Of a stretch of DNA of 64,000 nt, positions 3,417-57,076 are shown piece after piece. Source of the DNA: Isosphaera sp. (GTDB lineage Bacteria > Planctomycetota > Planctomycetia > Gemmatales > Gemmataceae). Below the pieces are notes generated by a model, which saw only the letters and a program-made list of their open reading frames with translations, did not search any database and was not told the DNA's origin. The position numbers and the translations under genes are program-made. Position 1 is the first letter of the stretch; each line of letters opens with the position of its first letter. The stretch is from positions 1 through 64,000 of the forward strand of contig PNKH01000002.1 in assembly GCA_013822345.1 (NCBI GenBank), given 5' to 3'.

Positions 3417-3486
3417 GGCGAACCGCGACCGTCAGGGAGCGGGTGTCCGTGGGTTGACACCCGCTCCCTGACGGTCGCGGTTCGCC
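3417..3486. repeat. NRDRQGAG-type palindromic element, family A copy 1
   Basis: A 70-bp hairpin with arms GGCGAACCGCGACCGTCAGG...GCGGGTGTC and the exact complement, separated by a short loop (CGTGGGTT). The same arms recur at 13512-13578, 37918-37986 (inside the megasynthase gene), 53173-53316 and 56935-57076. It lies between uppP and the sigma-factor gene, both on the plus strand. Confidence 0.93.
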
Positions 3487-3545
3487 AAAAAACTTGAGCA
3501 CCCGGCGGCCCGGGCGGACATGATTGGGGTAGAGGAGTGCCGCCG

Positions 3546-5183
3546 ATGCCCCGCGTCCGCCTGCCGGTCCGGCTGCCCGCCCCGTTCGCCGGGGACGACG
3601 ACCGCGCCCTGGTCGCCCGGTTCGCCGCCGCCCGGGACGAGGCGGCGTTCGCCGCGCTGGTCGGGCGGCACGCCCGGATGGTGTACGGGGTGTGCCGGCG
3701 GACCGTCCGGGACGGGCACCTCGCGGAGGACGCCTTCCAGGCGACGTTCCTGGTGCTGGCGAGGCACCCGGCCCGGGCGGCGTCGGCCGCGTCCGTCGGC
3801 GGGTGGCTGTTCGGGATCGCCCGCCGGGCCGGGTTGGCCTCCCGCCGGCACGAGGACCGCCGCTCCCGGCGAGCGTCGAGCCGTCAGGCCGACGTGCCTA
3901 CCCCACGCCCGGCCGACTTCGACGACCTGCTCCGGGTGCTCGACGAGCAACTGTCCGCCCTGCCCGACGACTGCCGGGCGGCGCTGGTCGCGTGCTTCCT
4001 CGAAGAGCGGACGCAGGACGAGGCGGCCCGGCAGCTCGGGTGGAGCCTGAGCACCCTCCGCCGCCGGCTCGACCGCGGGAAGGAACTCCTCCGCGCCCGC
4101 CTCACCCGCCGCGGGGTGACCCTCGCCGCCGGGCTGTTCGCCACCGGCCTGGCCCGGTCCGCGTCGGCCGCCGTCCCGGTCCGATTGCTGGACGCGACGA
4201 CCCCCGCCGCCGGCGGTTCGCCGCTCGCCGCCGCCCTCGCCGCGGAAGCCGCCCGGACGGCCGGCGTGGCGGTGTGGGTGTCGGCGGTCGCCGGGGTCGC
4301 GGTCGTGCTCGGCGGGCTGGCGGCGTTCGCCGGCGACCGCCCCCGGCCGGCGGCACTCGTCCCGCCGGCGCCGCAGTTCGTCGCCGCACCGATCCCGCAG
4401 GAGCGGAAGCCGTGGGCGACCGTGACCGGGCGGGTGGTGTACCCCGGTGACGGCGAGCTTCCGAAGCCGCGGCTCGTGCCGGCGGGGATGATCAAGGACG
4501 CCGACTTCTTCACGCCGGCGGGGGAGTTGACCTACGGCGACGTGGTGATCGACCCGAAGACCCGCGGGCTGGCGAACGCGGTGGTGTGGCTCCGCCCGGA
4601 CTCGGACGACCCGTCGGCCCCGTTCCCGGTCGACCGCATCCACACGACGTACCGCGACGCCAAGCCGCGGGAGCACCGGGTGGCGTGCGGCCGGGGCGGG
4701 TTCGCCCCGCGGGTGGTCGCCGCCCGGGCCGGGGACACCGTCCGGTTCGCCAACCCGACGGGGGTGTTCTTCAACGTCCACTACCAGCCGGCCGGCGGGG
4801 ACGACCCGACCCGGGAGTTCAACCTCGTGCTGCGGCGCGACCAGCGGCCCGGCGGCGAGGAGCAGACCTACGCCACCGGCCCGCTGCCGGTCCTGCGGAG
4901 CTTCGACCTGGTCCGCGACGCCATCCACCCGTGGGTGACCGGGTACGTCCGGGCGTTCGACCACCCGTACTTCGCGGTCACCGACGCCGAGGGGCGGTTC
5001 ACGATCCCGGACGCCCCGGCCGGGGCGTGGCGGCTGATGGCGTGGCACGAGAAGGTCGGGTGGCGGGACGGGGCGAAGGGCCGGCTCGGGGAGCGGGTCG
5101 TCGTCCCGGCCGGCGGCCGGCTCGAGTTCCCGGCCCTCGTCCACGACAGCGACCTGTGGGCCGGCCGGCCCGACGAACCCTGA
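3546..5183 (+). CDS. ECF-type RNA polymerase sigma factor fused to a membrane helix and a cupredoxin-like domain
   Basis: The 545-residue fusion has three parts. Residues about 18-100 are sigma region 2 (DEAAFAALVGRHARMVYGVC, then AEDAFQATFLVLAR). Residues about 133-190 are region 4 with a helix-turn-helix (TQDEAARQLGWSLSTLRRRL). A hydrophobic helix near residues 240-262 should span the membrane, and residues about 289-545 form a carboxypeptidase-regulatory/cupredoxin-like domain. That last part is paralogous to the protein encoded next door at 5228, but its copper site is degenerate: the C-x-x-H-x-x-M signature reads D458-x-x-H461-x-x-V464. The architecture suggests a membrane-tethered sigma factor with an outside sensor. 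The ATG at 3546 was preferred over the GTG at 3537 because GAGGAG at 3532-3537 is correctly spaced only for the ATG. Confidence 0.85.
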   Translation: MPRVRLPVRLPAPFAGDDDRALVARFAAARDEAAFAALVGRHARMVYGVCRRTVRDGHLAEDAFQATFLVLARHPARAASAASVGGWLFGIARRAGLASRRHEDRRSRRASSRQADVPTPRPADFDDLLRVLDEQLSALPDDCRAALVACFLEERTQDEAARQLGWSLSTLRRRLDRGKELLRARLTRRGVTLAAGLFATGLARSASAAVPVRLLDATTPAAGGSPLAAALAAEAARTAGVAVWVSAVAGVAVVLGGLAAFAGDRPRPAALVPPAPQFVAAPIPQERKPWATVTGRVVYPGDGELPKPRLVPAGMIKDADFFTPAGELTYGDVVIDPKTRGLANAVVWLRPDSDDPSAPFPVDRIHTTYRDAKPREHRVACGRGGFAPRVVAARAGDTVRFANPTGVFFNVHYQPAGGDDPTREFNLVLRRDQRPGGEEQTYATGPLPVLRSFDLVRDAIHPWVTGYVRAFDHPYFAVTDAEGRFTIPDAPAGAWRLMAWHEKVGWRDGAKGRLGERVVVPAGGRLEFPALVHDSDLWAGRPDEP

Positions 5184-5227
5184 CGCCCCACGCGGCTCTC
5201 TTCCAACCCTTACCACGAGGTCCTCCG

Positions 5228-6004
5228 ATGCGACTGCTGTCGTCCGTGCTCTGCTGCGCGCTGATCGGTATCGCCGCCCGCGGCGACGACCCGAAGGCGT
5301 GGGCCACCGTCAAGGGCCAGGTCGTGTACCCGGCCGACAAGCCGGTCCCGAAGCGGGCGGCCCTCGCCGTCACCAACGACAAGCCGCACTGCCTGTCGAA
5401 AGGCGACATCCTCGACGAGTCGGTGGTCGTCAACCCGAAGAATCGCGGCATCAAGAACGTCGTGGTCTGGCTGCGGCCGGACGACCTGAAGGACCCGAAG
5501 GCGAAGTTCGCCGCCGGCCAGATCCACCCGGCGGACGCGAAGCGGAAGCCGGTCGAGGTGGTCATCGACCAGCCGTGCTGCATGTTCGTCAGCCGGGTCA
5601 CCGTCGCCCGGGTCGGGGACACGGTGGTAGTGAAGAACCCGTCGCCGGTGGTCCACAACTTCTTCTGGGACAGCACGAACAACGGCGCGTTCAACGCGAA
5701 CATCCCGGCCGGGGCGCAGTGGAAGATGCCGGCCGCACTGGCCGCGGAGGCGGCGCCGATCCAGTACAAGTGCACCGTCCACCCGTGGATGACCGGGTAC
5801 GTCCGGATCTTCGACCACCCGTACTACGCGGTGACGGACGACGACGGGAAGTTCGAGATCAAGGACGCCCCGGCCGGGAAGTTCCGGATCGTCTACTGGC
5901 ACGAGAGCGGCCTCCGCGGCGGGAAGGACGGGCGGTTCGGCGAGCCGGTGGAGATCGCCGGGCCGGCGCTGCAACTGAAGCCGGTCGACTTCGAGGTGAA
6001 GTGA
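5228..6004 (+). CDS. Secreted cupredoxin-like (plastocyanin-type) protein
   Basis: The 258-residue protein has a short signal peptide (MRLLSSVLCCALIGIAARG). The mature part begins WATVKGQVVYPAD, a beta-sandwich start seen in planctomycete plastocyanin/azurin-like proteins. A plausible type-1 copper site is visible: H143 in NPSPVVHNFFW, then C182, H185 and M188 in KCTVHPWMTGYV (Cys-x2-His-x2-Met). The C-terminal part (AVTDDDGKFEIKDAPAGKFRIVYWHE) looks like a carboxypeptidase-regulatory domain. It lies 44 bp after the sigma-factor gene and is paralogous to that protein's outer domain, so the two probably act together, perhaps as copper or redox carrier and sensor. That functional link is inference. 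Confidence 0.8.
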   Translation: MRLLSSVLCCALIGIAARGDDPKAWATVKGQVVYPADKPVPKRAALAVTNDKPHCLSKGDILDESVVVNPKNRGIKNVVVWLRPDDLKDPKAKFAAGQIHPADAKRKPVEVVIDQPCCMFVSRVTVARVGDTVVVKNPSPVVHNFFWDSTNNGAFNANIPAGAQWKMPAALAAEAAPIQYKCTVHPWMTGYVRIFDHPYYAVTDDDGKFEIKDAPAGKFRIVYWHESGLRGGKDGRFGEPVEIAGPALQLKPVDFEVK

Positions 6005-6084: not shown

Positions 6085-6753
6085 ATGTTACCACGGGTCG
6101 CGCGGGTCGTCGCCACGGTCGCCCTGGGGTGTGCCCTAACCCTGTCGCCGGGCCTGGCCGCCGACGAGAAACCCGCCTCCCCGGCCAAGGAGCCGCCGGC
6201 GAAGCCGACCGACTGGTCGCGGTACGTCGTCGTCGGGGACGTGGTCGGCGAGGTGGTGAAGGCGGACGACAAGAAGCTGACCCTGCGGGTGACGTGGTTC
6301 GTCCAGGAGGTGAAGGGCGGGAACAAGAACAACAATAACAACAACCGCCGGCCGCCGCTCGGGCAGAACAACCGGAACTTCAAGGGCGGCAACAACCGCC
6401 CGCCGCAGCAGCCGCAGGTCACGGTCAAGGAACAGCACCACGACTACGAGATCGAGTACGTCCCCGAGTCGCTGGTCCGGACCAAGCTCCTCCCGTTGAA
6501 GACGGACGACAAGGGGAAGCGGGTGAACCACACCCAGAAGGAGCTGGACGCCCTGCGGGCCCCGCCCGGGGCGCCGTGGTACGCCGCCTCGCCCGCCGAC
6601 CTCGAACCCGGCCACATCGTCGAGGTGATCTTCGTCCGCGAGAAGACGATCCCGGCCGCGAAGGCGACCGAGGACGACCTGCGGGTGAAGTACGCGATCA
6701 TCCTCGGCAAGGACTCGACCCCGCCGGTCGAGGACAAGAAGAAGAAGAATTGA
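6085..6753 (+). CDS. Secreted hypothetical protein with Asn-rich tract
   Basis: The 222-residue protein has a signal peptide (LPRVARVVATVALGCALTLSPGLAA, cleavage likely before DEK). The mature region starts with a strand-rich stretch (VVGDVVGEVVKADDKKLTLRVTW) and is interrupted by a low-complexity loop with a GNKNNNNNN run plus NNRRPP and GGNNRPPQQP. It ends in a lysine tail (EDKKKKN). No known domain was recognised. The ATG at 6085 follows GGGGAGGGTGCGGG. Related exported planctomycete proteins often carry such tracts, but no function can be given. It converges on the WD40 gene at 6840, with a perfect 25-bp hairpin between them. Confidence 0.72.
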   Translation: MLPRVARVVATVALGCALTLSPGLAADEKPASPAKEPPAKPTDWSRYVVVGDVVGEVVKADDKKLTLRVTWFVQEVKGGNKNNNNNNRRPPLGQNNRNFKGGNNRPPQQPQVTVKEQHHDYEIEYVPESLVRTKLLPLKTDDKGKRVNHTQKELDALRAPPGAPWYAASPADLEPGHIVEVIFVREKTIPAAKATEDDLRVKYAIILGKDSTPPVEDKKKKN

Positions 6754-13511: not shown

Positions 13512-13578
13512 CACCCGCTCCCTGACGGTCGCGGTTCGCCTCGGTGCCGGGCGAACCGCGACCGTCAGGGAGCGGGTG
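13512..13578. repeat. NRDRQGAG-type palindromic element, family A copy 2
   Basis: A 67-bp hairpin has outer ends CACCCGCTCCCTGACGG and CCGTCAGGGAGCGGGTG and a loop of about 9 bases. The core arms match copy 1 but the element is in the opposite arrangement (the CACCC end is outermost). It sits eight bases before the stop codon of the methyltransferase pseudogene. Confidence 0.92.
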
Positions 13579-37200: not shown

Positions 37201-40200
37201 CCCGCGGGCGGAGGGGCAACTGCGGGCGCTGGAGCGGGCGTACGCCCAGGCCCGGGTGTCGCCGGCGCGGGTCGGGCTGGTCGAGGCGCACGGCACCGGC
37301 ACGGTGGTCGGCGACCAGACCGAGGCGCGGGCGATCGGGCAGCTGTTCCGCGACGCCGGCGGGCAGGCGCAGTCGTGCGCCCTCGGGTCGGTGAAGTCGA
37401 TGATCGGGCACTCGAAGTGCGCCGCCGGCCTGGCCGGGCTGATCAAGGCGGCATTCGCCCTGCACCACAAGGTGCTCCCGCCGACGCTGGTGGAGTCGCC
37501 GAACCCGCGGGCGAACCTGGACGGCGGGCCCCTGTACCTGAACACCGAGGCCCGGCCGTGGGTCCACGGGGCCGACCACCCGCGGACCGCCGGGGTGAGC
37601 GCGTTCGGGTTCGGCGGGACGAACTTCCACACCGTGCTGGAGGAGTATACCGGCGACTACCTGGACCGGCCGGCGACCGGGTTCCGCCGCTGGCCGGCGG
37701 AGCTGTTCGTGTGGCGGCGGGCGGACGTGGTCGGGCTGACATCCGACGTGAAGGCTTGCCGCGACGCGCTGGCCGCCGGGGCGTCGCCGGAGCTGCCTGA
37801 CCTCGCCGCCGCGGTGTGGCAGTCGAGCAAGGGCGGGGCCGGCCGGCCGACGCTGGCGGTGGTCGCGACCTCGCTCGACGACCTGCGCGACAAGCTCGAC
37901 GCCGCCCTGCAACTCCTGGCGAACCGCGACCGTCAGGGAGCGGGTGTCGGCGCCCCACACCCGCTCCCTGACGGTCGCGGTTCGCCGGTGCACTTCGCCG
38001 ACCCCCGCGGCGTCTATTACGCGCCGAAGCCCGAGGCCGCCCCGAAGGTCGCGTTCCTGTTCCCGGGCCAGGGGTCGCAGTACCCGGACATGCTGGCCCA
38101 GCAGGCGATGGCGTTCCCGGAGGTGCGGGCCGTCCTCGACCGGGCCGAGCGGACCCTCGCCCCCGACCTCGACAAGCCGCTCGGCCGGTTCGTCTACCCG
38201 CCGTCGGCGTTCACCCCGGAGCAGGAGGCCGCGAACCGGCACGCGCTGCAGCGGACGGAGGTGGCCCAGCCGGCGGTCGGGGCGGCGAGCCTCGGCATGT
38301 TCCGGCTGCTCGCCGCGCTCGGGGTAGAGGCCGATTACTTCGCCGGGCACAGCTACGGCGAGTACGCGGCGCTGGCGGCCGCCGGGGCGCTGTCCGAGGA
38401 CGACCTGGTCCGCTTGTCGCACCGGCGCGGGCGGGTGATCCGCGACGCGGCCGCCGCGGCGCCCGGCGGGATGCTCGCCGCCGACGCCGCCCCGGGCGCC
38501 CTGGAGCCGGTGCTGGCCGGCGTCGCCGGGGTGTGGGTGGCGAACCACAACTCGCCGACCCAGACGGTGCTCGCCGGGACCGAGGACGGGCTGAAGGCGG
38601 CGGCCGGGAAGCTGCAGGCGGCGGGCGTCCGGGCGCAGCGGATCCCGGTGGCGTGCGGGTTCCACTCGCCGCTGATCGCCGCGGCGAAGGAGCCGCTCGC
38701 CGCCGCGCTGGCCGAGGTGACGTTCGCGGCGCCGGCCAAGCCGGTGTTCTCGAACACGACCGCCACCCCTCACGACCCCGCGACGGTCGCCCGCCAGCTC
38801 GCCGACCACCTCGTCTCGCCGGTCCGGTTCGCGGACGAGGTCGCGGCGATGCACGCGGCCGGGGCGCGGGTGTTCGTGGAGGTCGGGCCGCAGGCGGTGC
38901 TGACCGGCCTCGCGGCGCAGACCCTCGCCGGCAAGCCGCACCTCGCGGTCGCGTCCGACATCAAGTCGCGGCCGGGGCTGGTGCAGTTGGCCCACCTGCT
39001 CGGACAGTTGCTCGCCGCCGGGGTGCCGGCCGACCTCGACCGGCTGTTCCGCGGCCGCGGGGTGCGGCCGCTCGACCTGGCGAAGCTCGGGCCGGACACC
39101 GGCAAGCCGAAGCACACCGCGACGACGTGGGTGGTGAACGGGGTGCGGAGCCGGCCGGTGAACGGCCCGGAGCCGCGGCTGCTCGGCCAGGCGCGGCCGG
39201 AGGGCGCGAAGCCGGCCGCGCTGAAGCCCGCCCCCGCCCCGGCGAACGGCACACCGCCCGGTCCCGCCACCCCGCCGAGCGTCCCGACCTCCCCCGTCGC
39301 CCCGCGAGCGAAGATGACCCCACCCGAGACACACCCGCTCCCGGCCCCGTCCGCGAACGGCGCCCACGCCCCGGCCCCGGACGGCGCGGCCGCCGTCATG
39401 GCCCGGTTCCAGGACGTGATGGCCAAGTTCCTCGACACCCAGCGGGGCGTCATGATGGCGTACCTCGGGGCCGGCGGCACGGCCCCGGCGGCCGCACCAC
39501 TGCCCGCCCCCGCCCGGCCGGCGTACCCGCTGAACGGCACCGCCAACGGGCACCCGGTCGTCCCGCCGGCAGTCGCGAACCGACTGGTCGTCCCCGAGCC
39601 GGCCGCCCGCCCGGTCGTCGCGGCGCCTCCGCCGGCCCCGGTCGCGCCGGTCGTCGCGGCGGCGGTGGCGAAGCCCGCCGCCCGGCTCGACCGCGACACG
39701 CTGCTCGCCAAGCTCCTCGACCTCGTCAGCGAGCGGACCGGATACCCGAAGGAGGCCCTCAGCATCGACCTCGACCTCGAGGCCGACCTCGGGGTCGATT
39801 CGATCAAGCGGGTCGAGATCCTCGGGACGCTGGCCGAGGGGATCGGGACCGGGGCGGACGGGAAGGCGCCGGCCCTGGAGATGGAGAAGCTGTCGGTCCT
39901 CAAGACCCTCCGGACGATCGCCGACTACGTCGTGGAGGTGCTGGAGGCCGGCCCCGCGGACGAACCGCCGGCCGCCCTTCCCGCCCCCGCCCGCAACGGC
40001 GACTTCCACCCCGGGGCGCGGGAAGGCGAGGTGCAGCGGCTCGTCGTCCGCCTGGTCGACGCCCCGCCGCCGGTCCGCCCGCGGTTCGCCCCGCCGGCCG
40101 GGGCGGTCGTCCTGACCGACGACGGCCGCGGCACCGCCCGCGAGCTGGCCGACCGCCTCGCCGACCTCGACGTGAAGACCGTCCTCCTCCGCCCCGACGC

Positions 40201-53172: not shown

Positions 53173-53316
53173 CAGGGCCGTTCGGTGTGGGGGTTTGGGT
53201 CGGTGTCACCCGCTCCCGGACGGTCGCGGTTCGCCGAGCGGTTGGCGAACCGCGACCGTCCGGGAGCGGGTGCGACGCCGCCCAGACCGCCCAACCCCCC
53301 ACACCGAACGGCCCTG
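53173..53316. repeat. Family A long palindromic element, copy 4
   Basis: Outer arms CAGGGCCGTTCGGTGTGGGG and CCCCACACCGAACGGCCCTG flank the family A core (CACCCGCTCCCGGACGG...CCGTCCGGGAGCGGGTG). Compared with copies 1-3, both arms carry CCGGG/CCCGG in place of CAGGG/CCCTG. The PQQ-propeller gene starts 91 bp downstream. Confidence 0.92.
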
Positions 53317-56934: not shown

Positions 56935-57076
56935 CAGGGCCGTCCGGTGTGGGGGGTTGGGTCGGTGTCACCCGCTCCCGGACGGTCGCGGTTCGCCCCG
57001 GCGCCCGGCGAACCGCGACCGTCCGGGAGCGGGTGCGACGCCCAGACCGCCCACACCCCCACACCGAACGGCCCTG
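56935..57076. repeat. Family A long palindromic element, copy 5
   Basis: It has the same outer/inner organisation as copy 4 (outer CCAGGGCCGTCCGGTGTGGG against CACACCGAACGGCCCTGG, inner CCCGCTCCCGGACGG against CCGTCCGGGAGCGGG). As in copy 4, both inner arms have the CCGGG/CCCGG form. The TolC-like gene follows. Confidence 0.92.

Follow-up and report, generated by a model that had tools for sequence, protein, structure and literature searches.

What does a sigma factor read when the domain that it displays outside the membrane looks like a copper protein with its copper site gone? The locus described here raises this question: an ECF sigma factor with a predicted transmembrane segment and an outer cupredoxin-like domain (SIG) is encoded directly upstream of a secreted-type amicyanin-like cupredoxin (SEC). 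Both genes lie in the first 64,000 nt of contig 2 of a 7.5 Mb draft planctomycete genome, a stretch that we call the window. Working throughout from sequence and predicted structure, we show the architecture of SIG, the conservation of the pair, the secondary nature of the ligand loss, and a conserved upstream motif unique to SIG, and we weigh what the outer domain may respond to.

The genus of the window (g1) is represented by 19 genomes, G000 to G018, with the window genome being G000. For comparison we used 99 relatives, many of them draft assemblies, together with 95 genomes of the family.

Architecture of the tethered sigma factor and its neighbour

SIG has regions 2 and 4 only, as expected of an ECF sigma factor (Pfam Sigma70_r2, E 6.7e-11; Sigma70_r4_2, E 3.2e-10), followed by a membrane segment and, beyond it, a folded outer domain (Table 1). 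The segment between the sigma part and the outer domain has a Kyte-Doolittle mean of 2.27 over 19 residues, and a hydrophobic segment with a mean of at least 1.79 is present in 19/19 uncut fusions examined; this topology would place the outer domain outside the membrane. An artificial fusion or frameshift is excluded by a single open frame in 13 genus genomes—outer domains without a sigma part were seen in genus genomes only at contig ends.

Table 1. Features of the SIG-SEC locus, in window positions.
Feature	Position	Strand	Remarks
TGAGCA, -35-like box of the SIG promoter-like motif	3495..3500	+	Conserved, fixed 15 bases from second box
GGACATGAT, -10-like box of the SIG promoter-like motif	3516..3524	+	1.97 bits/base over 18 loci
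AGAGGAG, ribosome-binding-site-like, 8 bases before ATG 3546	3531..3537	+	Read from sequence
SIG: ECF sigma factor, transmembrane segment and outer pseudo-cupredoxin domain, 545 aa	3546..5183	+	ATG at 3546, stop ends at 5183
Sigma regions 2 and 4, residues 38-182	3657..4091	+	Pfam PF04542, PF08281 above cut-offs
Predicted transmembrane segment, residues 241-259	4266..4322	+	Hydropathy 2.27; low AF2 confidence
Outer cupredoxin-like domain, about residues 290-535	4413..5150	+	39% identity to SEC; AF2; Foldseek amicyanin/plastocyanin
SEC: secreted-type amicyanin-like cupredoxin, 258 aa	5228..6004	+	H143, C182, H185, M188 intact

The AF2 model of SIG has a mean pLDDT of 81.4; both globular parts are mostly above 85, and residues 196-274, which include the membrane segment, are mostly below 50. 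Foldseek matches the model best to ECF sigma factors (SigK, SigW, SigL) and to amicyanin and plastocyanin. The outer domain resembles SEC with an E-value of 3e-47 at the identity given in Table 1, and the tethered domain on its own gave no significant sequence match in the PDB (best E 0.41). The SEC profile, in contrast, finds amicyanin by sequence (E 1.4e-7), and its His and Cys-x-x-His-Pro-x-Met loop line up with those of amicyanin. SEC is modelled by AF2 at a mean pLDDT of 92.1, and its top Foldseek match is amicyanin (E 1.1e-6). The cupredoxin-like character that an initial annotation of this DNA gave to both domains is thus borne out by the models, which have a cupredoxin-type fold in SEC as well as in the SIG outer domain.

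SEC combines the cupredoxin fold with the His/Cys/His/Met ligands of an amicyanin-like type-1 protein; H143, C182, H185, and M188 are invariant in 31/31 free homologues (alignment A2) and stand at amicyanin spacing. Its signal peptide is predicted from the sequence, and SEC may bind copper in the cell. The window genome also encodes a second, lone SEC-like protein (G000:C71:35521-36249; L002, L053), 68% identical to SEC and with 4/4 ligands present, in a neighbourhood that appears to include a CTP-synthase-like frame; this second protein could be the partner of SIG instead of SEC.

Conservation of the pair

The fusion is found in 17/19 genus genomes—whole in 13 and partial on its contig in 4, with the outer domain alone in G007, G015, and G018 and the sigma part alone in G011. 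SEC lies directly downstream of SIG in 16/16 genus loci with a readable outer domain and adjoins the fusion in 2/2 loci of the nearest genus, g32 (G132, G130), where the downstream flank is covered; the two remaining members of the window's genus, G012 and G017 (98 and 97% complete), have neither SIG nor a paired SEC. The expectation of the initial annotation that the pair would co-occur in relatives therefore holds, down to joint absence. G012 and G017 have one strong SEC-like gene, of another branch, besides a weak fragment match. In the other five fusions outside the genus, no SEC was present in the flanking stretch examined, and free copies or pieces lie elsewhere in the genome. Among the matches listed for 297 class genomes (best four candidates per genome), no full-length fusion appeared outside the family, which is a weak negative.

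The flanks of the pair are less well kept within the genus: uppP is present in 4/15 other loci, three of which begin inside SIG so that uppP could not show, and the gene after SEC is present in 3/15. The product of that gene (window 6085-6753) is 222 aa long, begins like a signal peptide, includes a run rich in Asn, and gave no Pfam or NCBIfam match. As a separate observation, the G008 and G010 loci (L041 5604-6413, L042 5729-6616) differ with a dS of 0.46 for SEC vs 0.18-0.19 for SIG; the higher SEC value suggests that SEC of one of these two genomes was replaced by recombination.

Loss of the copper ligands

SIG has F409, D458, H461, and V464 at the positions of SEC H143, C182, H185, and M188. 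The initial annotation had listed the first, second, and last of these replacements, and alignment by position confirms all three; absent from its list was the fourth ligand, H185, which is kept in the window protein as H461. Across the genus, H143 and C182 are each lost in 16/16 readable tethered domains, H185 is kept in 8/16 (Tyr in 7/16, Gln in 1/16), and M188 is kept in 11/16; since these 16 domains descend from one shared ancestor, the counts describe one inherited event and not 16 independent ones. Cys 55, 117, and 118 are also lost in 16/16. Loss on this genus-wide scale excludes a quirk of a single genome. It is not chance either, because H143 and C182 are kept in 0/16 while 11 other columns, invariant in the 31 free homologues, are kept in 14-16 of 16.

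The SIG outer domain thus lacks the type-1 ligand set, genus tethered domains being without two to four ligands; judging from its residues and model, it can hardly hold type-1 copper but keeps the fold. Both parts of the original observation—ligand loss in the outer domain and an intact amicyanin-like protein beside it—are supported. A domain that still binds copper or another metal through a changed ligand set, and so acts as a direct metal sensor, would fit the partial retention of H185 and M188, and ligand-intact fusions elsewhere suggest copper as the older signal; however, the complete loss of H143 and C182, the Tyr and Gln at the second His, and the fact that no replacement ligand set is common across the genus make this reading very improbable.

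Origin, order of events, and selection

Outside the genus, 7/7 fusions keep 4/4 ligands (G050, G055, G056, G107, G108, G132, and the split G130), with G128 and G011, which are cut by contig ends, not counted for ligand state. Because all seven keep His, Cys, His, and Met, the ligand loss is secondary, and the older tethered sensor probably bound copper itself. This bears on the overall model of the initial annotation, in which the secreted protein binds copper or electrons and the tethered, ligand-free copy senses it or its partner: the ligand loss, the intact neighbour, and the co-occurrence stand, but the ligand-free form is derived and not original.

An in-between state is seen in G130, where the tethered domain has lost the Cys 55/117/118 set and keeps the ligands. 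In a tree of tethered and free cupredoxins (68/78 rows, 10 short or distant rows having been dropped), the ligand-lost domains form one clade (100/99) with the G132 fusion as sister (100/99), and the SEC clade (100/100) stands apart from the tethered-domain clade. These separate clades (100/99 vs 100/100) rule out that the tethered domain arose from SEC by a recent tandem duplication. A tree of the sigma part, built from the best-scoring 72 of 94 rows, agrees in placing the genus, G132, and G128 together (100/99). The likely order is that an intact domain was fused first, that SEC then became the neighbour and the Cys set disappeared, and that the ligands went last. Contact with SEC was not a founding feature of the fusion family, because 5/7 outside fusions have no adjacent SEC and pairing preceded loss. 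A single origin for all fusions is improbable, G056 being probably separate (AU p 0.027); G050, G055/G107, and G108 may or may not share an origin with the genus fusion (support 51/75).

In seven pairs, Nei-Gojobori dN/dS lies between 0.12 and 0.60 for the tethered domain, compared with 0.07-0.34 in the sigma part and 0.15-0.45 in SEC. The tethered domain evolves faster than the sigma part in 7/7 pairs with dN/dS below 1 in 7/7, and by this measure is under purifying selection. The faster evolution, and the loss of all Cys of the fold in the genus, would suit an outer domain that is a leftover anchor decaying after copper loss, with SIG activity set by how much of the protein there is or by a different regulator; such decay is improbable, however, given the dN/dS values below 1, the kept structural columns, the well-folded AF2 model, and the presence of the domain in 16/16 readable genus members.

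A tandem of two free cupredoxins occurs in G106 of genus g38 (L259 1374-2366 and 1877-3331, same record as L069): the first keeps His, Cys, His, and Met; in the second, Ile replaces the first His and Leu replaces Met, with Cys and the second His kept. The tandem may be a parallel case, without fusion, of an intact copy beside a degenerate one.

A promoter-like motif in front of SIG

Directly upstream of SIG lies a motif with the consensus TGARCA-N15-GGACATSAT, its first box preceded by an A/T-rich tract. Over 18 loci the boxes are conserved at 1.79 and 1.97 bits/base, compared with 0.29 for the preceding 60 bases. A search of 37 genomes (19 + 18) for the exact motif gave 17 sites, one in each of 17 genomes and all in front of SIG; the 20 other genomes have no SIG, an upstream region off the contig, a one-mismatch site (G128), or distant fusions. 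A three-mismatch site is present in G108, and no convincing site was found for the G055, G107, and G056 fusions.

Sites with one mismatch exceed a reversed-pattern control, with 30 vs 6 in the first 19 genomes and 29 (one being the SIG site of G128) vs 11 in the other 18, and several are the same stretch in different genomes; they may belong to a regulon larger than the SIG operon or be chance matches in coding sequence. In its layout the motif is like ECF promoters, with their GAAC-type -35 and spaced -10 elements. We infer, with good support from this placement and conservation, that SIG drives its own operon via the motif at 3495-3524, both promoter use and recognition by SIG being predicted; a conserved upstream motif alone is insufficient proof that SIG reads it.

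Just before the motif lies a perfect 30-base inverted repeat (window 3417-3486). Its arms recur at 13514-13576, 37925-37979, 53209-53270, and 56971-57033, so that the window has 10 matches, arranged as five inverted pairs, vs 0.15 expected; genome-wide the arm occurs 304 times at one mismatch or fewer, 152 per strand, with 0 in the control. The repeat looked like a terminator, but a terminator or specific regulator site is therefore ruled out in favour of a high-copy palindromic repeat.

Comparison with known systems

Extended ECF sigma factors are common in the window genome, where 34/77 region-4 matches lie in frames of at least 400 aa—frames that may include bases before the true start. The architecture of SIG alone is ordinary, because its host is a Gemmataceae-type planctomycete with many extended ECFs. 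The initial annotation had regarded a sigma factor with its own outer sensor as unusual outside planctomycetes; the host is itself a planctomycete, where such forms are usual, and tethered forms occur elsewhere too (IutY, ECF52; PMC8999054). A Pfam scan of nine extended ECFs of the window genome gave one clear WD40 propeller, one weaker propeller signal, three with an outer-membrane efflux piece, and four with sigma/helix-turn-helix matches only. The three with the efflux piece, a C-terminal match to Pfam OEP, are L153 955-2382 (G000:C4), L157 1018-2382 (G000:C96), and L158 772-2163 (G000:C83). The OEP-bearing ECF on contig 96 sits between HlyD-type and AcrB/RND-type efflux genes, and may be a second sigma factor carrying a homologue of adjacent machinery.

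C-terminally extended planctomycete ECFs include ECF-WD40 proteins (PMC8567305). SIG is like these in combining an ECF sigma part and a long extension in one protein, but its extension is amicyanin-like, has lost its ligands, and has an intact homologue encoded next door. No description of a sigma-cupredoxin fusion was found in the literature searched, which was mostly outside subscription journals (including PMC8103513).

Among metal-responsive ECFs, CorE and CorE2 of Myxococcus xanthus (ECF238, formerly ECF44) likewise have a C-terminal extension, which answers to metals (PMC8999054). In CorE, a known copper ECF, the Cys-rich extension is cytoplasmic and the linker contains a CxC (PMC8999054, PMC10141476). 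SIG, unlike CorE, spans the membrane with its predicted segment, its outer domain contains 0-2 Cys (genus members counted), and there is no CxC between residues 105 and 130, in the sigma2-sigma4 linker; neither CorE-type feature was thus found in SIG. IutY (ECF243) and the ECF52 member SCO4117 share with SIG the order of sigma factor, membrane segment, and outer region, and PMC8999054 describes proteolytic activation as shown for IutY and proposed for SCO4117. According to the same paper these proteins carry an anti-sigma domain (zinc-finger type in ECF52); in contrast, SIG matched no anti-sigma family in a Pfam scan that listed hits up to E 0.1.

SEC is like amicyanin and type-1 cupredoxins in sequence, fold, and Cys-x-x-His-Pro-x-Met loop, and differs in its length of 258 aa, an added carboxypeptidase-regulatory-like part (weak Pfam match), and extra conserved Cys residues. 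What appears to be new here is the conserved pair, the secondary ligand loss, the structural constraint, and the exact motif specific to SIG.

What the outer domain may read

With the fold and structural residues kept and the copper site lost, protein contact is the most likely input. We tentatively favour an autoregulated one-component sigma system in which the metal-free outer domain of SIG reads a partner, most likely SEC. The sigma part would be held at the membrane by an outer domain that descends from a copper-binding, amicyanin-like sensor, its ligands having presumably been lost once, in the genus ancestor, after SEC had become its neighbour. The outer domain would most likely act by protein-protein contact, and SEC might be its ligand, the signal being how much SEC is present or what its copper or redox state is. 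That signal would free or activate the sigma part, perhaps by cleavage or by conformational change, and the freed sigma part would read its own promoter, leading to more SIG and SEC.

Nearly as likely is that the tethered domain has been repurposed for another signal (a small molecule, an envelope protein, or a redox partner) and that SEC is output only, a copper or electron carrier; we regard this as a real possibility on three grounds. The replacement residues form two sets kept within sub-clades: G000, G005, G009, and G014 have F/D/H/V, and the remaining 12 mostly have T/S/(H or Y)/M, a pattern that a site with a newly gained role would be expected to show. Ligand-intact fusions work without an adjacent SEC, and an operon order of sigma factor then target is usual for ECFs. 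The gene that is always kept beside SIG is, however, a homologue of the sensor itself, which output alone explains less directly.

Implications

Reading the locus as an autoregulated system in which SIG responds to SEC leads to a broader proposal, one that is possible and that we put forward with reserve: a one-component copper sensor may have become a two-part one, the metal being passed to a secreted paralogue and SIG becoming a metal-free receptor—a pseudo-cupredoxin—for that paralogue. If so, transcription would follow the state of a copper or electron-transfer protein and not free metal, and the ligand-intact fusions of relatives, unpaired and paired, would be present-day versions of the earlier steps.

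Planctomycete genomes carry dozens of extended, membrane-tethered ECF sigma factors; to our knowledge, neither signals nor promoters have been established for any of them. The SIG-SEC family offers a tractable case: its predicted promoter is present a single time per genome, its predicted ligand is the product of the adjacent gene, and living relatives provide a natural series of sensor states (ligands intact without an adjacent SEC, intact with one, and lost with one). Two questions thereby become directly testable: what switches a tethered sigma factor on, and by what route a metal sensor may come to sense a metalloprotein.
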